From Aeromicrobium sp. (GTDB lineage: Bacteria; Actinomycetota; Actinomycetes; Propionibacteriales; Nocardioidaceae), in contig NZ_JAGLCD010000008.1 in the NCBI RefSeq assembly GCF_023146395.1, forward strand, positions 124,001 through 188,000: DNA of 64,000 nucleotides. Direction: 5' to 3'. Both the position numbers and the translations under genes were made by a program. Below the pieces are notes generated by a model. The model had not been told where the DNA came from, did no database searches, and saw only the letters and a list, made by a program, of their open reading frames with translations. Below are positions 26,535 to 37,090 of this stretch, in pieces. Every line of letters begins with the position of its first letter. Position 1 is the stretch's first letter.

Positions 26535-27203
26535 TCACTCGGCGTCGAGGTCCTGGGCGAAGACGCGGAAGTCGCCGTGGTCGCGGTGCATCGTCCACAG
26601 GAGCTCGGCGAGGACCTCGGGATCCTTGCGCGGGTGGCCGGGCTCGATCGACCCCGGGATGATCAGCTGCCCGACGTGGATGTCGTCCGGAGCGAGCGCC
26701 TCGTGCAGCATCTGGCCGAGCGCCGACTCCCCCGCGAAGGCGACCGAGGTGCCGGCGAACTTCGCGACCGGCCGCACCGCGCTGCCGCCGTTGACCAGCA
26801 GCACCGTGCCGCCACCGAGGAAGCGCATGTGCTGGGTCACGTGGTGCACCGCGGCGAGCGGACCGAGGATCGAGAACTCGAGCGCGGGCTGGAGATCCTC
26901 GACCGTCGTCTCGAGCACGGGGCGCAGGTACTCCTTGGCCGGCAGCGGGCTGTACTGCAGCACGTCGATGGGTCCGAGGTCGGCCGAGATCGCGTCGAGC
27001 GCCTCGCGGATCGACGCGGGCCGGCGCACGTCGGCGGTGTACCCACGGGCTTCGATTCCCTCGGCCTGCAGCGTCTCCGCGAGCTGGCGGGTGCGGCCCA
27101 CGTTGCGCGAGACCAGCCCGACCGAGAAGCCCTCCTGCGCGAACCGGCGGGCCACGGCCGCTCCGAGATTGGATCCGGCACCGATGATCGCGAGGGTCGG
27201 CAT
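26535..27203 (-). CDS. SDR-like Rossmann protein lacking the YxxxK pair
   Basis: A 222-residue short-chain dehydrogenase fold protein. The dinucleotide site reads LAIIGAGSNLGAAVARRF, a variant of TGxxxGxG, and the active-site Ser may be in LLVNGGSAV. Where the catalytic Tyr and Lys (YxxxK) should follow, the sequence is FAGTSVAFAGESALGQ with neither residue. It may be a non-classical reductase or a binding protein. AGGAGGA precedes the ATG. It lies 105 bases after the ligase of the nitrilase operon on the same strand, so membership is possible but not shown. Confidence 0.75.
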   Translation of the reverse strand: MPTLAIIGAGSNLGAAVARRFAQEGFSVGLVSRNVGRTRQLAETLQAEGIEARGYTADVRRPASIREALDAISADLGPIDVLQYSPLPAKEYLRPVLETTVEDLQPALEFSILGPLAAVHHVTQHMRFLGGGTVLLVNGGSAVRPVAKFAGTSVAFAGESALGQMLHEALAPDDIHVGQLIIPGSIEPGHPRKDPEVLAELLWTMHRDHGDFRVFAQDLDAE

Positions 27204-27308: not shown

Positions 27309-28646
27309 TCAGCGATGGAGGGAGCGGCGGGCCTTGCCGGTGTCGTCGCGCAGCGGCGTGGACGTCGTCTCGAGGGAGCGGGGGCGCTTCTCGGGGTCGA
27401 GGCGGGAGCGCACCCAGGCCAGGAGCTCGCCGGGGTCCGCGGCTGACTCCGCGACGACGTGCACGACCTCGCCGAGACCAGGATCGGGCCGCCCGACGGC
27501 CACCGACGACAGCACCGCCGGATGCGCGTCGACGACCGCCTCGACGTCGGCCGGGTGCACCGTGACGCCCCCCGTCGTGATCGCGTCGTCGAGCCGGTCC
27601 GCCACGAACACGTACCCGCCGTCGTCGATCCAGCCTGCGTCCCCGAGCCCGTGCCAGCCGGGCAGCCCGCCGTCGCGCCGCATCAGCAGCTCGCCGACCT
27701 CCCCCGGAGCGCACGTCGACCCGTCCGGACGCACCGCGCGGAACCGGGAGCCGGCGACCGGCCGTCCCACCGAACCGGGGTGCTCGAGCCACTCGTCGCC
27801 GCGGATCATCGTGAGCCCCTGCGCCTCGGTGCCCGCATACACCTCGACGACCCGCTCGGCGCCGAGCCAGCCGATCCAGTCCCGCTTGAGCGGCTCAGGA
27901 CACCGCGCCGCCAGGTGCATCACGGAGTGGAGCGAGGAGACGTCGGTCGACGCCCGCGACGGGTGCTCCCAGATCCGCGCCATCGTGGTCGGCACGAGCA
28001 TCGTCCAGCCCACCCGACGACGGCCGATCGCGGCCAGCGCCGCGCCCGCGTCGAACTGCGGCAGCACGACGAGCTCGTGGCCCGTCATGAGTCCGCGCAT
28101 CGCGTAGACGAACGGCGCGGCGTGGAACAACGGACCCGACACGAGCTGCACGACGTCGCGCGGCACGAACGGGGCCACCACGCCGTCCGGGTCGACGATC
28201 GACGGGTGCGGGTCGCGCAGCAGCTTCGGCATGCCCGTGCTCCCGCTCGAGGTCGGCGCCTTCCAGGAGGACGCCACCGCGTCCGGGAGGGGCCGGTCGT
28301 CGGTCGCGGTGATCCGGACGGGCCGGTCCACGACCAGCCGGGGCGACACGAGCTCCAGCAGACGGGCACGTTCAGCCGGCGGCAGGCGGGGCGACAACGG
28401 CTGCGGCGTCGCCCCGAGCTTCCACGCCGCGACGCAGGCGAGCACGACGTCGAGCCCGTTCGGCAGGCTCACCGTGACGAGGTCGTCGACCCCCACCCCG
28501 TCGTCCGCCCAGGTCCGGGCCAGGCGGTTCCCGAGCGACTCCAGCTCGGCCCGGGTCACGACCCGCTCCCCCACCGTGATGGCCGGCCGGTCGGGCTCGC
28601 GCTCGGCCAGGAGCGTGAACGCGCGCCCGATCGGCATGCGCGTCAT
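27309..28646 (-). CDS. AMP-dependent acyl ligase of the nitrilase operon
   Basis: An ANL-superfamily adenylating enzyme of 445 residues, resembling o-succinylbenzoate- or fatty-acid-CoA ligases. The P-loop reads SSGSTGMPKLL, the A5 region EVYAGTEAQGL, the hinge GGYVFVADRLDDAITTGG, and the C-terminal Lys is in LRDDTGKARRSL. It should activate a carboxylate as an acyl-AMP. ATG 28646 overlaps the glycosyltransferase stop (ATGA). I know no fixed ligase in this cluster type, so its carboxylate may be a product of the nitrilase step; that is inference. Confidence 0.82.
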   Translation of the reverse strand: MTRMPIGRAFTLLAEREPDRPAITVGERVVTRAELESLGNRLARTWADDGVGVDDLVTVSLPNGLDVVLACVAAWKLGATPQPLSPRLPPAERARLLELVSPRLVVDRPVRITATDDRPLPDAVASSWKAPTSSGSTGMPKLLRDPHPSIVDPDGVVAPFVPRDVVQLVSGPLFHAAPFVYAMRGLMTGHELVVLPQFDAGAALAAIGRRRVGWTMLVPTTMARIWEHPSRASTDVSSLHSVMHLAARCPEPLKRDWIGWLGAERVVEVYAGTEAQGLTMIRGDEWLEHPGSVGRPVAGSRFRAVRPDGSTCAPGEVGELLMRRDGGLPGWHGLGDAGWIDDGGYVFVADRLDDAITTGGVTVHPADVEAVVDAHPAVLSSVAVGRPDPGLGEVVHVVAESAADPGELLAWVRSRLDPEKRPRSLETTSTPLRDDTGKARRSLHR

Positions 28647-29779
28647 CGGGCGGGCAGGCGACCTGCGAGGTGCGCCTCGTAGAAGGCGACGTGCGACCGG
28701 GCCGCCCGCTCCCACGTGTAGCTGCGCGCGAGCGCCCGGCCCACCGAGGGAGGCGGCGGCGAGGTCACGGCGGTCGCGAGCGCGGCGGCGATCCCGAGCG
28801 GCGAGTCGGCGTAGGCGACGGCCGACCCGAAGACCTCCCGCAGCACCGGCAGGTCGCGCGCCACGACGGGCACACCCGCAGCCAGGGCCTCCATCGCGGC
28901 GAGCCCGAAGCCCTCCTTGGTCGAGACGAAGGCGAGGGCCTCGGCCTGCGCGACGAGCGAGGGCAGGTCGACGTGGTCGACGGCACCGAGCACCTCGTGG
29001 TCGACCGCGAGCTGACCCGCGCGACGCTCGAACTCACGGCGGTAGTCGCGGTAGTCGAACAAGGTCTCACCGCCGGCGAAGACGAGCCGCAGCTCGGGTC
29101 GTCGCCGCCGGAGCATCGCGTAGGCCTCGAGCAGGTCGATGCTGCCCTTGCGCGGCTCGATCCCGCCCAGCGCCAGGACGTAGGGCCCGAGCTTGTCCGC
29201 CCACCGCGTGCGACCGGCCGTGTCGGCGGCGCCCGCCTCGAAGCGCTCCGCGTCGACCCCGTTCGCGATGACGCTCGGCGCGAGCCCCCACCCCTGGCGG
29301 ACCTCGGCCGCGACGGCCTCGGACACGCAGATCCGCGCCGCGGGTCGCGTCACGGCCCGTTCGTGGCACGCGGCCAGCTCGGGGGTCGTGAACGTGTCGA
29401 GGTGGTGGATCGTCCGCACGCACGGCACTCCGGCGGCCATCACGGCGTTGGCGCTGATGCAGTCCTGGGCGTGCACGACGTCATAGCCGGTCCGGACCCG
29501 GGCGAACGCCTCGGCCAGCGCGGCGATCGACCGCAGGATCCGGGCGCCGACCTCCTCGCCGTCGACCCCCGGGAACGGCACCGCGTGCACCGTGACCGCG
29601 GGATCGACCGGTCGGAAGAAGCCCACGTCACCGCCCCGCGCGAGGGTCCACACGTGCACGTCGTGGCCGAGTGCCGCGAGCGCCTCCGCGAGTGCGAGCG
29701 TGTGGACCACGCCGCCGCGTGGCTTGGAGGAGTACGTCAGCAACGCGATGCGCAGCTCGCCCTGGGCTCCGGTCGTCAT
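28643..29779 (-). CDS. MSMEG_0565-family GT4 glycosyltransferase
   Basis: A GT-B fold sugar transferase of 378 residues. The N-terminal domain begins RIALLTYSSKPRGGVVHTLALAEAL. The C-terminal nucleotide-sugar site has the GT4 motif KEGFGLAAMEALAAGVPVV (E-x7-E). Its place in the cluster identifies it as the MSMEG_0565-type enzyme found in part of the known clusters, which suggests the final product is glycosylated. The ATG overlaps the stop of the upstream nitrilase-fold gene. Confidence 0.87.
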   Translation of the reverse strand: MTTGAQGELRIALLTYSSKPRGGVVHTLALAEALAALGHDVHVWTLARGGDVGFFRPVDPAVTVHAVPFPGVDGEEVGARILRSIAALAEAFARVRTGYDVVHAQDCISANAVMAAGVPCVRTIHHLDTFTTPELAACHERAVTRPAARICVSEAVAAEVRQGWGLAPSVIANGVDAERFEAGAADTAGRTRWADKLGPYVLALGGIEPRKGSIDLLEAYAMLRRRRPELRLVFAGGETLFDYRDYRREFERRAGQLAVDHEVLGAVDHVDLPSLVAQAEALAFVSTKEGFGLAAMEALAAGVPVVARDLPVLREVFGSAVAYADSPLGIAAALATAVTSPPPPSVGRALARSYTWERAARSHVAFYEAHLAGRLPAR

Positions 29780-30618
29780 CGGGACCCGCCCGGCCCGTAG
29801 CTGCTCGGGCTGAGCTCCTGGAGGTGGTGCAGGATCCGCCGCGAGCGCGCGATCTCGAGCGCGACGTCGACCTCGGCGACCGCCAGGGCGCCCTTCGACC
29901 AGGTGCGGGCCAGCACGTCGCCCCCGGGCCCGACGACCTTGGCCTGGCCGAGGAACCGCAGCCCGCCCATGACCCCGGTCTGGTTCGACGAGACCCACAC
30001 GACCTGGTTCTCGGCCGCCCGCGCGCTGTCGTACAGGTCGAACAGTCGCGACTGACGGTCCTGCGGCAGTCGCGAGGCGCGGTCGGTGACGCTCGCGGGC
30101 CACGCCGACAGGCAGGCGATGACCTGGGCCCCGTCGAGCGCGAGCGTGCGCGCCGACTCCGGGAAGGTCTTGTCGTAGTCGATCAGCATCCCCAGGCGAC
30201 CCACCGGGGTGTCGAACGCCGCGAACGCGTCCCCGGCGGCGTAGACGAGCGACTCGCCCGCCGGCTGGTGCACCTTCCGGTGCCGGCCCAGGACGCCGTC
30301 ACCCGTGACGCAGAGCGCCGCGTTGTGGTGCCGGAGCTCCCCGTCAGCGACGGTCTCCTCGGTGTAGCCGAAGCACACGACCATGTCCTCGGCCATGGCC
30401 GCGACCTGCTGGACCTCGGCCGAGCCCTCGGCGAAGGCCGGTGGCAGGGCGTCCGGGTCCGGGCTGCGCAGGTCGGCCAGGTACCCGCCGAGCGTCGCGT
30501 CGGGCAGGACCAGCAGGTCGACGCCCGCCTCGCGGGCGTCACCGATGATGCCCGCGATCTTCTCGAGGGCCCGGGGGACGTCACGCCCGAAGTGCGCGGC
30601 GACGGCGGCGAGGCGCAC
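29776..30618 (-). CDS. nitrilase-fold pseudoenzyme paralogue
   Basis: A 280-residue carbon-nitrogen hydrolase fold protein, clearly paralogous to the nitrilase at 32188 (both share HRKVHQP, TPVGR.GMLI.YDK.FPE, KVVGPGGDVLA). Lys115 of the triad is kept, but the Glu is Asp40 (LPDATLGGY, codon GAC at 30499-30501) and the nucleophilic Cys is Asp147 (MLIDYDK, GAC at 30178-30180). Loss of Cys should abolish nitrilase or amidase chemistry. The frame is intact and coupled within the operon, so it is probably kept as a structural or regulatory partner of the active nitrilase. Confidence 0.85.
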   Translation of the reverse strand: MRLAAVAAHFGRDVPRALEKIAGIIGDAREAGVDLLVLPDATLGGYLADLRSPDPDALPPAFAEGSAEVQQVAAMAEDMVVCFGYTEETVADGELRHHNAALCVTGDGVLGRHRKVHQPAGESLVYAAGDAFAAFDTPVGRLGMLIDYDKTFPESARTLALDGAQVIACLSAWPASVTDRASRLPQDRQSRLFDLYDSARAAENQVVWVSSNQTGVMGGLRFLGQAKVVGPGGDVLARTWSKGALAVAEVDVALEIARSRRILHHLQELSPSSYGPGGSR

Positions 30619-30621
30619 GGT

Positions 30622-31875
30622 CTAGTGCCGGGCCGAGGCGGGCTGCCGCGCCCCGACGATGGCGTGGAAGACGTGCTCGGCGTCGCGGGCGATGCCGGCG
30701 AAGCGTCCCGAGCCCCACGTGTGCATCCACGGCAGCCCGAGGAAGTACAGCCCCGGCACCGACGTGATCCCGCGCGTCTGGGTGGGCGCCGCGGCACCGT
30801 CGAAGACCCCGACCTTGACCCAGCGGTAGTCGGGCCGGTAGCCGATGCCCCAGACGATCGAGGTGATGCCGGCCTCCGCGAGGTCGAGCATCCGTGGCTC
30901 GTGGTCGGGCGTCCAGACCGGTTCGTACTGACCGCCCGGCGGCGCGTCGATGCCCTCGCGCTCGATGAACGCGTCGATGTCGCGGCAGATCGAGTTGTAG
31001 ACCGCGTCCGCGGAGTCCAGCGCCGCCGTCATGGTGGGCTCGAAGGACAGCCGGGTGCCCTCGGCGCCGGACATCAGGCCGTAGAGCCGCATGCCCTCGA
31101 CGGCGAACTGGCGCAGGTCGATGTCGCGACCGCCCTCGCGTCCCGTGACGTAGTGGTTGGTCTTCTCCCGCGCCGCCCGGCCGCCGGGATACTGCTGCAC
31201 CGGGGTGTCGTAGAGGCCCATGTCGGACAGCCAGGTCATGCAGTCGCGGCCCCGGTAGAAGCGCGCGACGCGGGGCGCGTCGCCCAGTGCGAGATGGACC
31301 GCGCGGCCCTCGAGGTGCAGGTCCTCGGCGATCTGCGCCCCCGACTGGCCCGAGCCGACCACCAGGACCTCACCGTCCGGCAGCTGGGCCGCGTTGCGGT
31401 AGTCGGCCGAGTGCACCTGGGTGATCGACGGGTCGATGCCCGCGGCGAAGGGCGGCACGATCGGCAGGTGGTAGCCGCCCGTGGCGAGCACCACGTGCTC
31501 GGCCTCGAGCAGCTCCTCGCCGCCGGGCCCCTGGAGGGTGAGCTCGAACCCGCCGCCCTCGCGCTCGGTCAGCAGCGTCACCGCGGTGTGCTCACGCACC
31601 GGCGGGTCGAAGCTCGCGACGTAGCCCGCGAGCCAGGCCGCCACCTCCTCGCGGTTCATGAATCCATCGGGGTCGTCGCCGTCGTAGGCGTAGCCGGGAA
31701 GGCGGCAGTGCCAGTTCGGTGTCACGAGCGTGAAGTTGTCCCACCGCCGATCGGTCCACTCGTGGGCCGTGGTGGAGGCCTCGAGCAGCACGTGCTCGAC
31801 GCCTTCGCGGGTCAGGAACCAGCTGACCGACAGACCGGCCTGGCCGGCTCCGACGATCGCGACGGGGATGCTCAT
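30622..31875 (-). CDS. MSMEG_0569-family flavin-dependent oxidoreductase
   Basis: FAD/NAD(P)H monooxygenase-like flavoprotein of 417 residues. The FAD site is VAIVGAGQAGLSVSWFL, and the second Rossmann motif VLVVGSGQSGAQIAEDL binds NAD(P)H. ATGGYHLP and the GIGYRPDYRW strand complete the fold. It is a fixed member of the sll0783/MSMEG_057x clusters and presumably oxidises a nitrogen-containing intermediate. The ATG overlaps the 0570-type stop, and it ends 3 bases before the pseudo-nitrilase start. Confidence 0.88.
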   Translation of the reverse strand: MSIPVAIVGAGQAGLSVSWFLTREGVEHVLLEASTTAHEWTDRRWDNFTLVTPNWHCRLPGYAYDGDDPDGFMNREEVAAWLAGYVASFDPPVREHTAVTLLTEREGGGFELTLQGPGGEELLEAEHVVLATGGYHLPIVPPFAAGIDPSITQVHSADYRNAAQLPDGEVLVVGSGQSGAQIAEDLHLEGRAVHLALGDAPRVARFYRGRDCMTWLSDMGLYDTPVQQYPGGRAAREKTNHYVTGREGGRDIDLRQFAVEGMRLYGLMSGAEGTRLSFEPTMTAALDSADAVYNSICRDIDAFIEREGIDAPPGGQYEPVWTPDHEPRMLDLAEAGITSIVWGIGYRPDYRWVKVGVFDGAAAPTQTRGITSVPGLYFLGLPWMHTWGSGRFAGIARDAEHVFHAIVGARQPASARH

Positions 31876-32195
31876 GACGACTCCTGGGCAGCGGACACTG
31901 AGGTCTCGGGGAGGGGCGGCTGCATGTCGAGGACCTCGACGAGGTCGGCGGGCGCGAAGCCCGCCGCGGTGGCACGGATCTGCTCGAACGAGGCCGCCGA
32001 GGCGGTGCAGGCGAAGCCGTACCGCGCCCGCACCCGCTCGCTGGCCTCGGCCAGCGCCGCCTGCGACCGGCGGGTGAAGTCGTCGACCCGGTACGTCGCG
32101 CCCGGGGCGAGGTGGTCGTGCATCACGAGCGACGGGGAGTAGCAGTCGGCGACGCGACCATCGGGCCAGCGCACGGTCACGGTCATCTCAGGCAT
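31872..32195 (-). CDS. MSMEG_0570-family nitrogen starvation response protein
   Basis: A small soluble protein of 107 residues. It begins MTVTVRWPDGRVADCYSPSL, with a conserved Cys15-type position, and continues with HLAPGATYRVDDF, features of the MSMEG_0570 family linked to this cluster. No enzyme activity is known. It overlaps the upstream nitrilase by 8 bases and the downstream flavoprotein by 4. Confidence 0.78.
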   Translation of the reverse strand: MPEMTVTVRWPDGRVADCYSPSLVMHDHLAPGATYRVDDFTRRSQAALAEASERVRARYGFACTASAASFEQIRATAAGFAPADLVEVLDMQPPLPETSVSAAQESS

Positions 32196-33036
32196 GGGCC
32201 GGCGCCTTCGTGTAGGTGTCGGGGCGCCGGTCGCGCAGGTGAAACATCGAGCGTCGCGCCGTCGCGAGAGCGGCTTCGACGTCGAGGCCCGCGATCGCCA
32301 GGCCCGCCTCGGTGCCGGTCGTGGCGAGCACGTCGCCGCCCGGACCGACCACCTTGGCGTTGGCCACGAACCGCATCGAACCGAACGTGCCGACCTGGTT
32401 GGCCGCGAGCCACACGATCTGGTTCTCGAGCGCCCGCGCCTGGTCGAAGAGGTTGAACCGCGTGGTCCAACGGTCCTCGGCGATGTCGCTCGCGCCGGCC
32501 GTGCGCGACGAGGGCCAGGCCGAGATGCAGGCCACGATCTCGGCACCGTCGAGGGCCAGGGCCCGGGCCGCCTCGGGGAAGGCCTTGTCGTAGCAGATCA
32601 GCATTCCGACGCGACCGACCGGCGTCTCGAAGGTCTCGTAGACGTCACCGGCCTGGTAGTAGAGGTTCTCCCCGAGCGGTTGGTGCACCTTGCGGTGCAC
32701 GCCGATCACGCCGTCGCCGGTGAGCGCGGCGGCGGAGTTGTACCGGGTGGGCCCGTCGGCCTCGCAGAAGCCGACGACGACGGTCATGTCGCCCGCGATC
32801 TCGGCGACCCGGCGCAGCTCGGGACCGTCCAGGTCGAGCACGGGCGGGAGGGAGTCGGGCCCGTCCCCGTCGGTGTGCAGGGTCGAGAGGTAGCCACCGA
32901 GCGCCGCCTCGGGCAACGCCAGGAGCGCGACGTCGCGCGATCGCGCCTCGGCGACCAGGTGGGTGATCTGGGCGTAGGCCTCGTCGAGGTCGCGCCCGAA
33001 GTTGGCGGCCGCGGCGGCCAGGTGGGTCATGGTCAT
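32188..33036 (-). CDS. Sll0784/Nit1-type nitrilase
   Basis: Carbon-nitrogen hydrolase of 282 residues with a complete catalytic triad: Glu43 (LLALPEAALGGY), Lys116 (HRKVHQPLGEN) and Cys148 (GMLICYDKAFPE). This family hydrolyses nitriles (R-CN) or amides to acids and ammonia. Nit1-type genes are the core of nit1C clusters, which in Pseudomonas are linked to growth on cyanide. ATG 33036 overlaps the GNAT-AIR stop. Substrate here is not known; a bound partner may be the inactive paralogue at 29776. Confidence 0.9.
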   Translation of the reverse strand: MTMTHLAAAAANFGRDLDEAYAQITHLVAEARSRDVALLALPEAALGGYLSTLHTDGDGPDSLPPVLDLDGPELRRVAEIAGDMTVVVGFCEADGPTRYNSAAALTGDGVIGVHRKVHQPLGENLYYQAGDVYETFETPVGRVGMLICYDKAFPEAARALALDGAEIVACISAWPSSRTAGASDIAEDRWTTRFNLFDQARALENQIVWLAANQVGTFGSMRFVANAKVVGPGGDVLATTGTEAGLAIAGLDVEAALATARRSMFHLRDRRPDTYTKAPAHA

Positions 33037-34496
33037 GCGGAGAGCCCTTCCGTGAGGTGCTCCGTCGCGGGGCCCAGCCCCGTGACGGTGCCGGCGATCG
33101 TGGAGGTCACGAGGCCGTCGGGCCAGCGCAGGTCGACCCCGCGGCCCTCGGTCAGCCGTCCGCAGACGGCGGTGTCGACGTGCGGCGGCAGTGCCGCCCG
33201 TGCCGGGGTGCGCTCGGCCGAGATCATCGCGAAACCCGGGAAGCAGGTAAGCCAGTCGCCAGCCTTCGCCGCGGTCGGCATGGGGATCTTCGCGACCTCG
33301 AGCACGGCCTTGCACCCGCTGGCCTCGGCGAGCATGCCGGTGGTGCCGATGACGCCGGTCATGCTGACGTCCTTGGCGGCGGTCGGGTGCAGCGCCGGCA
33401 CCACGTCGGCCAGGGCCCGCAGCTCGTCGGCCGACCGGTGCGAGGAGCTGTCCCACTGCAATCCGGTGTACCCGGGCCGCCAGCCCCCGCCCAGGTCGGC
33501 CGTGAGTCGCAGCGACTCGCCGGGGCGGCCTCCGCCGCCGGGGACCGGGTGGTCGGCGCGACCCAGGGCCGTGACGCTGAGCGACGCCGGCACGCCGAGC
33601 TGGGTGTGCCCGCCGAGCACCGGGACGCCCCAGGCCTGCGAGGCGGCGCGCAGGCCCCGGACGATGCGCCGGGCGAACGACGCGTCGCGGGCGCCCACGG
33701 CGTCGAGCAGGCCGACGGGCGCGGCACCCATCGCCGAGATGTCGTTGAGATTGACCAGGACCGCGCACCACCCGGCCCACTCCGGGTCGCGCTCGACCAT
33801 CGACGGCAGGATCGCGTCGCACGCGGCGAGCAGGTCGGACCCGGGCACCGGGGCGGCGTCGTCGCCGACGAAGCCGTCGGGCGCCCCGAGGCCGTCGGTC
33901 CCCAGACCGTCGAGGACTGCGCCGAGCGCAGCCTTCGTGGCCCGGGCGAGGCGCTCGACGCGGTCGATCGGCCAGAGCATGTGCACGTGCGGGCGCCCGT
34001 GCACGTCGAGCGTCCCGAGGGTCGTCCAGCCGAGCCGGGCGAACAAGGGCTCGTTCTGCGCCTGCACCGTGGCGTCGAAGCGCAGGGCGCCCTCAACCTC
34101 GGCTCGGGCGCAGGCCGCGCGGACCAGCGCACCGCCGATGCCTCCGCGGACGCCTGCGTGGGCGCGTGCCGCGGCGCTGACCGCCAGCCGACTGCCCGAC
34201 CACCAGCCGATGTCGCGTCCCTCGACCGCGGGCGCGATCCGGACGCCGCCGAGCACGGCCCCCTCCGGCGTCCGCGCCACCAGGACGATCGTGCGGGGGT
34301 CGTCGTCGACGCGATCGGCGTCGTGAGCGGCGAAGATCCCCTGCTCGGCCACGAACACGTCGCGTCGCAGCGCCCGGTAGGCGTCGAGATCGGCGCGCGA
34401 GTGCGCTTGCTCGACCAGGAAGGTCGGGGCGGGCGAGGGCCGCGTGCCGGTCAGGATGCCCCGGTCGAGGTCTCCCGCCGTCGTCACGTCGGCCAT
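33033..34496 (-). CDS. GNAT acetyltransferase fused to AIR-synthase-like domain
   Basis: A 487-residue fusion. Residues ~15-160 are a GNAT domain (AYRALRRDVFVAEQGIF, then the acetyl-CoA loop HAGVRGGIGGALVRAA) of the MSMEG_0567/Sll0786 type. Residues ~165-487 resemble PurM/ThiL-fold ATP-binding proteins (DAILPSMVERDPEWAGWCAVLVNLNDISAMGA cut across the substrate site, VLGGHTQLG), which corresponds to Sll0787 as a separate gene in Synechocystis. The fusion links acylation with an ATP-dependent ring-closing or phosphorylating step. ATG 34496 begins one base after the radical SAM stop; a GTG nine bases upstream is an alternative. Confidence 0.87.
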   Translation of the reverse strand: MADVTTAGDLDRGILTGTRPSPAPTFLVEQAHSRADLDAYRALRRDVFVAEQGIFAAHDADRVDDDPRTIVLVARTPEGAVLGGVRIAPAVEGRDIGWWSGSRLAVSAAARAHAGVRGGIGGALVRAACARAEVEGALRFDATVQAQNEPLFARLGWTTLGTLDVHGRPHVHMLWPIDRVERLARATKAALGAVLDGLGTDGLGAPDGFVGDDAAPVPGSDLLAACDAILPSMVERDPEWAGWCAVLVNLNDISAMGAAPVGLLDAVGARDASFARRIVRGLRAASQAWGVPVLGGHTQLGVPASLSVTALGRADHPVPGGGGRPGESLRLTADLGGGWRPGYTGLQWDSSSHRSADELRALADVVPALHPTAAKDVSMTGVIGTTGMLAEASGCKAVLEVAKIPMPTAAKAGDWLTCFPGFAMISAERTPARAALPPHVDTAVCGRLTEGRGVDLRWPDGLVTSTIAGTVTGLGPATEHLTEGLSA

Positions 34497-34497
34497 G

Positions 34498-35586
34498 TCA
34501 GGCACCTTCGCTCTGCAGGACGCTGCAGGCTCCGCACGCGGCGCATCCCGCGGCCTGGTCCGACCCGTGCATGCCGGCCTCCATCAGCGCGTGGGCGACC
34601 CGGCGCGTGACGTCCTGCAGCACCGGCGCCGCCGGTGGGGGCACCCGGTCGACATCGGTCGCGAGCGTGCCGGCCAGCGGGCGGAAGGGCACGACGAACG
34701 GGTAGACGCCCAGGTCGATGAGCTCCTGGGCCGCCTCGACCATCTCGTCGGGGTCCTCGCCGAGACCGACCAGCAGGTAGGTCGAGACCTGGTTGTGGCC
34801 GAAGACCCGCACGGCCTCCTTCCACGCCGCGCGGTACTCGTCGAGCGGGACCTGTGCCTTGCCCGGCATCCAGCGTCGGCGCACGCCGTCGTCCATCGAC
34901 TCCACGTGGATGCCGATCGACCGGGCGCCCGCCTCGTACAGGTCGGTGATGGTCTGCAGGTCGGCCGGAGGCTCGCACTGCACCTGGATCGCGAGGTCGG
35001 GCAGCACCGCGCGGACGGCCCGGACGCAGCGCGCCAGGTGGGTCGCGCCCCGGTCGCGGCCGTTCGACGTCCCGGTGGTCATGACCATCTGCGTGATGCC
35101 GTCGAGGTCGTGCGCAGCCTTGGCGACCTCGGCGATCTGCGCGGGCGTCTTGACCGCGATGGTCGAGCCCGCCTCGAGCGACTTCTCGATCGCGCAGAAC
35201 CGGCACCGTTCGGCCTCGTCGTACCGCACGCACGTCTGCACGACGGTCGTCGCGAGGACGTGAGCCGAGTGCAGCCGGGCGATCTTCTCGTACGAGACTC
35301 CGTCAGCCGTCTCGAGGTCGTAGAACGCCGGGCGGCGCACCGGCTCCACGCCGAGGCCGGTGTCGGCCCCGTCGAGGAGCAGGCGCCCCCGGTTGATCGT
35401 GAACGGGCTGTCGGGGTTGATCGGGACCGCGGTCCCGATCCCCCCGAGCAGCACGTGACCGTCGTCGCTCGGTCCCGCGCCCGACTGCCGGCTGACCGGC
35501 GCATCGAGCAGTCGGATGCCCGAGATGGCGACATCGACTCGAGTGCTGGTGCGGGTCGCTGTGGCTCCGCAGCTGGGCGCGTTCAT
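34498..35586 (-). CDS. MSMEG_0568-family radical SAM protein
   Basis: Radical S-adenosylmethionine enzyme of 362 residues. The 4Fe-4S ligands are Cys119, Cys128 and Cys131, spaced C-x8-C-x2-C (TCVRYDEAERCRFC), unlike the usual C-x3-C-x2-C and closer to BioB/LipA-like variants. Barrel motifs MVMTTGTSNGRDRG and GIHVESMDDGV follow. Three more Cys at 348, 351 and 354 (CAACGAC) could hold an auxiliary cluster. It is the key chemistry of the cluster; the reaction is unknown. GAGGAG precedes the ATG. Confidence 0.88.
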   Translation of the reverse strand: MNAPSCGATATRTSTRVDVAISGIRLLDAPVSRQSGAGPSDDGHVLLGGIGTAVPINPDSPFTINRGRLLLDGADTGLGVEPVRRPAFYDLETADGVSYEKIARLHSAHVLATTVVQTCVRYDEAERCRFCAIEKSLEAGSTIAVKTPAQIAEVAKAAHDLDGITQMVMTTGTSNGRDRGATHLARCVRAVRAVLPDLAIQVQCEPPADLQTITDLYEAGARSIGIHVESMDDGVRRRWMPGKAQVPLDEYRAAWKEAVRVFGHNQVSTYLLVGLGEDPDEMVEAAQELIDLGVYPFVVPFRPLAGTLATDVDRVPPPAAPVLQDVTRRVAHALMEAGMHGSDQAAGCAACGACSVLQSEGA

Positions 35587-35624: not shown

Positions 35625-36149
35625 TCAGAGGTTGTAGACCGAGTTGATGATCGCGCCCTTGCGGGCGTAGTGGATGACCGCGTCCTGCACGTCGAGCGGG
35701 TGCGCCGGGATGACGCCCTCGATCAGGTCCTCCTCGCGGATGCCGTGCAGGGCCAGGCCGAATCGGCAGCAGTACACCGTGCCGCCCTCGGCGATGTAGG
35801 TCTCGAGCGAGGCGTTCATGTTGAGCTCGCCCGGGAACCCTGCGTCGCCGGTGGTCGGGAAGCCGCGGTTGGCCGAGCACGCCAGGGTGCCCGGGCCGTA
35901 GAAGTAGATCGCCGTCTCGAAGCCCTTGCGCAGGGCCCGCGTGGCCTGCAGGATCGCGACGAAGCTGACCGACGACTCGTGCGGGATGCCGTGGATCAGG
36001 GTGAAGTACGACTGGCCCTCCTCGGCCTGGTAGTCGGGGAAGATCTTGGTGGAGCCGTAGAGGTTCGTGCCCTTCGGCAGCGACGGGTGCGCGATCTCGG
36101 CGAGCGAGGCCTCGATGTTGGCGGCGATCTGGTCGTCGATGTCGGTCAT
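35625..36149 (-). CDS. MSMEG_0572/Sll0783-family nitrogen starvation response protein
   Basis: A soluble protein of 174 residues with a DsrE-like look: alternating strands and helices (ETAIYFYGPGTLACSANRGF, EGGTVYCCRFGLALHGI) and Cys residues at strand ends. Its homologue Sll0783 in Synechocystis is induced by nitrogen starvation and affects PHB accumulation. Role here may be sulfur or intermediate handling, which is inference. AGGAG lies before ATG, so the long upstream reading is rejected. Confidence 0.83.
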   Translation of the reverse strand: MTDIDDQIAANIEASLAEIAHPSLPKGTNLYGSTKIFPDYQAEEGQSYFTLIHGIPHESSVSFVAILQATRALRKGFETAIYFYGPGTLACSANRGFPTTGDAGFPGELNMNASLETYIAEGGTVYCCRFGLALHGIREEDLIEGVIPAHPLDVQDAVIHYARKGAIINSVYNL

Positions 36150-36247
36150 CAGTTCTCCTGGTGGTGTCGGACTGGCGTGCTGCGGTGGTGGGTGTGGGGT
36201 CGTGCAGCTGGCGTCGCGCCGTTGCGGGCCAGGGCTGGTGGTCGAGG

Positions 36248-37090
36248 TCAGCTGCCGTAGAGCGCCTCGAAGTTGCGGTGGAAGAAGTGGTCGGCGAGCT
36301 CGCCGTCGCCGGCGGCGGCCGCGAGGCGTGCGTGCTCGCCGGCGAAGTCGCCCCACGGGGCGTCGGTCGCGAAGAGGATCCGGTCATGGCCGATGCCGCG
36401 CTTCTCGATCTCGTCCACGAGCCACAGCGGGGCGAAGCCGATCGTCCAGCTCGTGTCGGTGTAGACCTGCTTGCCCGCCTCGATCCAGTCGAAGAGGCGG
36501 CCGCCGATGAGCTTCATGTGGCCGCTCATGCCGCCGCCGAGGTGGACCAGGTGGATCTTGACCTCGTCGCCGTACCGGTCGACGAGATGACCGATCTGGT
36601 CGATGTCGCTCGCGGCGCCTGGCGAGGTGTGCACGTGCACCACGAGGTCGTGCTGGGCGGCGGCCGTGAAGATGCGGTCGATCTGCTCGGCGCAGTCGGG
36701 GTCGGTGGGCGAGCCGCCGAGGAGGAAGCTCGTCTTGAGCGCCTTGACCCCTCGCTCGGTCGCCAGGGCGAGGGCGCCGTCGTTGCGCGCGGCGTCAGAG
36801 GCCTTGGGCGAGACCCACAGGCCGCAGCTGACCCGGTCGTCGGCCTGGGCGGCCTCGATCGCGAGCGGGTTGAGGTCGAACGCGGCGTCGGGGATCGGCA
36901 CGCCGTAGTTCGGCAGCACCAGCGCCCGCTCGGTACCCTCGGCGTCGAGCGTCGCGAGGAACTCCGCGACCGTGGCCTTGGCGGTGATGTCGGCCTGGAC
37001 CGGCGGGCCGCCGTAGAAGGCGTACTCCGGCAGCCGGCCGATGTGGCGGTGGGAGTCCCAGTGGGGTCGCGCACCGTGAGCCGAGGTCAT
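36248..37090 (-). CDS. amidohydrolase-superfamily metal-dependent hydrolase
   Basis: TIM-barrel hydrolase (amidohydrolase_2 type) of 280 residues. Metal ligands are visible as HRH in HWDSHRHIGRL, HVH in LVVHVHTSPG, the His of IHLVHLGGG, and the Asp of FATDAPWGDF. Such enzymes hydrolyse or decarboxylate ring and amide compounds. It is the first gene of the nitrilase operon, 98 bases before the 0572-type gene. A shared transcript is likely because no terminator is seen in that gap. Confidence 0.83.
   Translation of the reverse strand: MTSAHGARPHWDSHRHIGRLPEYAFYGGPPVQADITAKATVAEFLATLDAEGTERALVLPNYGVPIPDAAFDLNPLAIEAAQADDRVSCGLWVSPKASDAARNDGALALATERGVKALKTSFLLGGSPTDPDCAEQIDRIFTAAAQHDLVVHVHTSPGAASDIDQIGHLVDRYGDEVKIHLVHLGGGMSGHMKLIGGRLFDWIEAGKQVYTDTSWTIGFAPLWLVDEIEKRGIGHDRILFATDAPWGDFAGEHARLAAAAGDGELADHFFHRNFEALYGS

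Follow-up and report, generated by a model that had tools for sequence, protein, structure and literature searches.

A conserved actinobacterial paralogue of the nitrilase superfamily without the catalytic cysteine, a probable pseudoenzyme of an MSMEG_0565-0572-type operon

Introduction

The locus considered here raises the question of why an operon should retain a second member of the CN hydrolase (nitrilase) superfamily that has no catalytic Cys. The reaction of this superfamily proceeds via a Cys thiolate, and of the two paralogues encoded in the window (the whole 64,000-nucleotide stretch of Aeromicrobium DNA that was analysed), one, termed A, has Cys at the nucleophile position and the other, termed D, has Asp. 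Genes of the D type are widespread in actinobacteria and are labelled amidase or carbon-nitrogen hydrolase, yet the nucleophile is gone in every copy examined. A sequence-only reading of this DNA had taken D to be a catalytically dead nitrilase, kept by selection for a non-catalytic role such as that of a hetero-oligomer partner.

In the accessible text of the open-licence literature we found no description of a catalytically dead nitrilase, and no earlier description of a clade-wide pseudoenzyme in the superfamily. A heteromeric precedent is provided by NIT4A and NIT4B of sorghum, two nitrilase paralogues that make up one heteromeric enzyme (PMC5154151). These are plant proteins from a different branch, however, and the accessible text of that paper claims no partner that lacks the nucleophile.

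The operon and its type

The MSMEG_0565-0572 gene families lie side by side on one strand of the window (Table 1), in the order, along the minus strand, amidohydrolase, MSMEG_0572 family, radical SAM, GNAT-AIR-synthase-like fusion, A, MSMEG_0570 family, flavoprotein, D and glycosyltransferase. The intact frame and the ATGA coupling attributed to D at the outset are both present: its reading frame is open in the window, and its stop codon and the start codon of the glycosyltransferase gene that follows share the ATGA at 29776-29779. Further ATGA overlaps join the MSMEG_0570-family gene to that of the flavoprotein and the GNAT fusion gene to A; the A and MSMEG_0570-family genes share eight bases, and D starts three bases past the flavoprotein stop. 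The amidohydrolase gene adjoins the cluster in most of the fetched clusters with room for it. After the glycosyltransferase gene the window carries, as do many Aeromicrobium loci, a gene for an AMP-dependent ligase (27309-28715), and after that an SDR gene (26535-27203); these two may extend the pathway in Aeromicrobium.

Table 1. Features of the operon and of the D gene, in window coordinates
Feature	Coordinates	Strand	Remarks
D, CN hydrolase paralogue without catalytic Cys	29776..30618	-	280 aa, GTG start; PF00795 113.1 bits
Asp147 codon, nucleophile position of D	30178..30180	-	GAC
Asp40 codon, general-base Glu position of D	30499..30501	-	GAC; variable among orthologues
Lys115 codon, catalytic-triad Lys kept in D	30274..30276	-	AAG
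Glu122 codon, second Glu kept in D	30253..30255	-	GAG
A, sister CN hydrolase	32188..33036	-	E43, K116, E123, C148; PF00795 131.8 bits (scanned with one extra upstream codon)
MSMEG_0565-family glycosyltransferase	28643..29779	-	TIGR04047 460 bits, cut-off 259.85 (scanned as 28643-29776)
MSMEG_0569-family flavin-dependent oxidoreductase (flavoprotein)	30622..31875	-	TIGR04046 634.2 bits, cut-off 498.35
MSMEG_0570-family nitrogen-starvation protein	31872..32195	-	TIGR04042 118.2 bits, cut-off 79.85
MSMEG_0567-type fusion, GNAT acetyltransferase and AIR-synthase-like domain	33033..34505	-	TIGR04045 112.9 and TIGR04050 455.9 bits, both over cut-off
MSMEG_0568-family radical SAM protein	34498..35586	-	TIGR04043 506.9 bits, cut-off 303.7
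MSMEG_0572/Sll0783-family protein	35625..36149	-	TIGR04044 237 bits, cut-off 109.85, scored on the longer ORF 35625-36356, inside which we picked the start codon
Amidohydrolase, head of cluster	36248..37090	-	PF04909 61 bits

The operon had initially been called a nit1C cluster, and on this point the assignment has to be corrected. Against the TIGR04048 cut-off of 502.6 bits (subfamily 1, Nit6803) A and D score 42.8 and 27.5, so true Nit1C membership was rejected; over their NCBIfam cut-offs in the window are the families MSMEG_0565, 0567, 0568, 0569, 0570 and 0572. Judged by gene content, the cluster is of the MSMEG_0565-0572 ('gpr') type and not a true Nit1C. The two types have much company in common, in that the Nit1C companion genes are present in the window over NCBIfam cut-offs: radical SAM, GNAT, AIR-synthase-like, flavoprotein and two small-protein families, as far as Nit1C is set out in the accessible text of PMC1199592 and PMC11049912. 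The same text gives Nit1C one nitrilase, of subfamily 1, whereas the window has two CN hydrolases, one of them without the nucleophile. The only strong TIGR04048-like gene of the genome (G000:C20:113700-114614) lies about 40 kb from the operon, outside the window, and scores 269.7 bits, below the cut-off.

In M. smegmatis, MSMEG_0565-0572 bears the name gpr, for GlnR-dependent peroxide resistance. According to the accessible text of the paper concerned, these genes are induced by GlnR in nitrogen starvation, their deletion leads to peroxide sensitivity, and MSMEG_0566 is a putative aliphatic amidase that could aid nitrogen assimilation (PMC6039565). The term aliphatic amidase recurs for MSMEG_0566 in the accessible text of two transcriptome papers, and MSMEG_0566 and MSMEG_0571 stand among nitrogen-responsive genes in the available parts of PMC4222082 (8.94 and 48.04, unlabelled figures) and PMC4617892 (2.96 and 4.06). 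In four loci of one family (L210, L211, L213 and L217) the order is MSMEG_0572 family, A, flavoprotein, radical SAM, GNAT-AIR-synthase-like fusion, D, glycosyltransferase, and D therefore sits where MSMEG_0566 stands; by synteny only, MSMEG_0566 should correspond to D and MSMEG_0571 to A. The gene order of the window differs from that of M. smegmatis, with A before the flavoprotein and D after it.

The nucleophile position of D

D is a member of the CN hydrolase superfamily by descent and fold, and probably not as an enzyme. It has the sequence profile and the alpha-beta-beta-alpha fold of the superfamily (PF00795), and AF2 monomer models of D and A have pLDDT values of 94.1 and 92.8. The nearest solved fold, that of the PH0642 amidase (6ypa/1j31), is 25% identical to D and has Cys146 where D has Asp147. 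From the Glu-Lys-Cys triad D keeps the Lys; the Cys site is Asp, and the Glu site is D, G, H, Q or Y. The residues originally singled out were all recovered at the codon level. Asp147 and Asp40 stand opposite C148 (TGC, 32593-32595) and E43 (GAG) of A, the preserved Lys115 stands opposite K116 (also AAG), and the change from Cys to Asp, TGC against GAC, does take two base changes.

Among orthologues the altered nucleophile is uniform. Asp occupies the site in all 143 distinct D sequences (copies removed), with Cys in none, while each of the 144 A-type or A-like rows has Cys at that site. Even the codon is constant, being GAC in each of the 106 D genes paired with an A gene in the codon analysis. 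Lys at position 115 is likewise found in 143 of 143, and the second Glu, Glu122, which we take to be the one labelled the 'tetrad Glu', in 142, the remaining sequence having Asp. At the general-base site the 143 sequences have Asp (127), Gly (7), His (4), Gln (3) or Tyr (2). Of the two substitutions on which the sequence-only reading had been built, that at 147 has therefore proved to be fixed, whereas Asp40 varies and, to judge from this alignment, is free of constraint. Farther afield, 16 loci of CN hydrolases, most of them from the same genus, were picked for comparison; the 11 that could be aligned, four of which are near-copies, all have Cys at the corresponding place.

At eight positions (147, 151, 189, 192, 202, 223, 263 and 268) D and A are each fixed for a different residue, as at 189 and 192, with Q and L in D against W and R in A. 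The eight fall mostly in segments that follow the nucleophile, lead up to and make up the last long helix, or belong to the tail; these segments we take to be the dimer surface of the superfamily. Invariant in the mixed alignment are Y148-D149-K150, F152-P153-E154, W173-P174, N204 and N212.

Selection and ancestry

The simplest account of such a protein would be a decaying pseudogene or a sequencing error, and with two of three triad residues gone D has the look of one. The agreement of every orthologue on Asp speaks against this, as do the D reading frames: all are open except in five search rows, where the matched span contains one TGA that is probably the natural stop codon close to the C terminus. 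D is also the less variable of the two paralogues. Over 77 dereplicated rows of D and 90 of A, mean site entropy is 0.903 versus 1.105, and 36% versus 28% of columns reach 95%. Values of dN/dS were obtained by the Nei-Gojobori method, which saturates in these GC-rich genes. With dS limited to 0.05 to 0.8, there were 49 disjoint gene pairs, and in 35 of them the value was lower for D than for A (medians 0.211 and 0.261; sign test p 0.004). Over all 5431 pairs with dS of 0.05-1.2 the medians were 0.345 for D and 0.398 for A, and among the 25 closest pairs listed, which share sequences, D had the lower value in 24. Purifying selection on D is, by these estimates, stronger than on A, the opposite of decay. 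The relaxed dN/dS that was to be looked for is absent, and the proposal that selection retains D is borne out by the fixed Asp147 together with the lower dN/dS; the same two results refute pseudogene or error as an explanation, the probability of which we consider negligible.

The D sequences form a single clade, with support of 99/94 in a careful 55-row tree and an SH-aLRT of 97 in a quick 97-row tree, and the loss of the nucleophile therefore happened once in what was sampled. In the best tree the sister of D is a set of Cys-bearing genes (L227-L230; 84/87), with none of the alternatives rejected (p-AU 0.39 to 0.46), and these may represent the catalytic-type sister. They are lone genes of other actinobacterial classes, found outside the cluster, and have several residues in common with D, with Q at 189 and L at 223 (L227/L233, L228/L234, L229/L236 and L230/L237 are the same genes).

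Distribution of D with and without A

Within the genus, 19 of 49 genomes have D, and within the family 62 of 341. An even sample of the class gave 33 D-bearing genomes among 394, and a phylum sample of 396 added one from a different class (G1037); the best 80 of 423 relatives in named genomes come from at least eight actinomycete families. A accompanies D in all 19, in all 62, in 32 of the 33 and in each of the 20 D-bearing genomes of one further genus. A occurs without D in 16 of the 394 class-level genomes, and D is therefore not obligatory for A; the D-less genomes are mostly from two genera of one family and so stand for few independent events. D without A occurs in one genome (G367), where the gene (L188:8297-9202) has the Asp, the Lys and the motif intact and adjoins an unrelated gene. 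That genome contains no A, no MSMEG_0572-family gene and no MSMEG_0565-type glycosyltransferase over cut-off.

The flavoprotein is also linked to D. Of the 33 class-sample genomes in which an MSMEG_0569 flavoprotein exceeds the TIGR04046 cut-off, 31 contain D. No MSMEG_0569 match was seen in 14 of the 16 loci that lack D, two of these loci starting at A. Four gaps between A and the glycosyltransferase gene were read in D-less loci (L190, L191, L192 and L196), and each holds another FAD-type oxidoreductase; an oxidoreductase of this other type, with FAD_binding_3 as best Pfam match, is also encoded in L189 (8360-9850), yet D is present there.

Across the 122 rows of partnered A, 72 sites are fixed, and 17 of them differ in at least one of the 18 unpartnered rows. 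The changes number 7, 8 and 11 in two D-less groups, presumably 'Frankiaceae-like', and L235/L238, and 0 to 6 when partnered lineages are taken out in turn. There are none in L186 and L187, the D-less A closest to the partnered ones, and A therefore does not need D there. Several of the changed states (Q190, L224 and L264) recur in D or the Cys-bearing relatives and so may be ancestral; we do not count these differences as evidence.

Discussion

With a catalytic residue lost clade-wide from a protein under purifying selection, we regard D, at a probability of about 0.85, as a conserved pseudoenzyme of the nitrilase superfamily, that is, as a conserved non-hydrolase. It is probably a helper protein, not an amidase; that it acts as a non-catalytic subunit, with A as the likeliest partner, we put at even odds. 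In the sequences sampled, the nucleophile of D was lost in a single ancestral event, and the protein has since been under a constraint stronger than that on A, normally in the same operon. Because the superfamily reaction needs the Cys thiolate, D would not be expected to hydrolyse C-N bonds. The salt bridge that in active enzymes joins the general-base Glu to the Lys may in D have passed to Asp147 and Lys115, which would keep the pocket folded and leave position 40 free to drift, but not positions 115, 122 and 147. D would then pair with A across the usual dimer surface of the superfamily, and might stabilise A, set its assembly or limit the access of substrate. When co-variation between D and A was scored (mutual information over 106 pairs with a Neff of 63, which makes for a weak test), a single one of the 60 top-ranked inter-protein pairs fell in the supposed interface segments, against 1.6 expected; the top-60 mean exceeded that of random pairing, as shared ancestry alone would have it. 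Co-residence with A and the links to flavoprotein and glycosyltransferase favour a helper role inside the pathway, with no single partner singled out. The original suggestion of selection for a non-catalytic role has thus fared well as regards the protein and its Asp147 and less well as regards the partner, given that A occurs without D and, in one genome, D without A.

A non-catalytic D need not be a partner of A. The MSMEG_0565-family glycosyltransferase or another enzyme of the operon might be served instead, and it is the glycosyltransferase, not A, that is the constant gene neighbour of D: its gene comes next after D, on the same strand, in 103 of the 107 distinct loci that have room for it, whereas the gene upstream of D varies (flavoprotein in 65, A in 35, the GNAT fusion in 4, or others). 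The ATGA overlap in the window points the same way, and the near-coincidence of D with the flavoprotein in the class sample would suit another enzyme. The glycosyltransferase gene is, however, also present in all 16 fetched D-less loci, and one locus (L207) has D with no such gene adjoining. CN hydrolases, moreover, have a known surface for pairing among themselves, and we know of no complex between a CN hydrolase and a glycosyltransferase. We consider a partner other than A unlikely.

Alternatively, D may be repurposed and not dead, the fixed Asp147, Lys115 and Glu122 either binding a ligand of the pathway, as in a sensor or carrier, or running a different reaction. The near-absolute conservation of the three charged residues, the invariance of most of the active-site neighbourhood in the mixed alignment, the fixed Q189 and L192 peculiar to D and the persistence of the orphan D with its motif intact would all fit. 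Much of that invariance is common to A, however, and may be structural, and the general-base position is free to vary. Cys variants of the superfamily have also been solved as inactive forms with bound ligand; an example is C146A of the PH0642 amidase (6ypa), which is reportedly inactive. On balance a repurposed D seems rather unlikely. A re-tooled charged site would account both for the greater conservation of D than of A and for the one genome in which D persists though the cluster is absent; that an intermediate of the MSMEG_0565-0572 pathway is bound, sensed or converted at such a site, giving D an activity or signalling of its own, is in our view improbable.

If D is a subunit or a sensor, amide hydrolysis by D is not to be assumed in work on this nitrogen-starvation operon, and the D-A pair would provide, in two natural paralogues, a test case for the control of nitrilase oligomers. 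The cluster has also moved onto a plasmid with D in it: the mobilizable plasmid pLP1 of Rhodococcus qingshengii (L280, NZ_CP088909.1) carries a cluster with both A and D, with IS3 transposase genes on both sides. The plasmid D again has Asp at the nucleophile site, and the annotation gives A and D the same name, 'carbon-nitrogen hydrolase family protein'.
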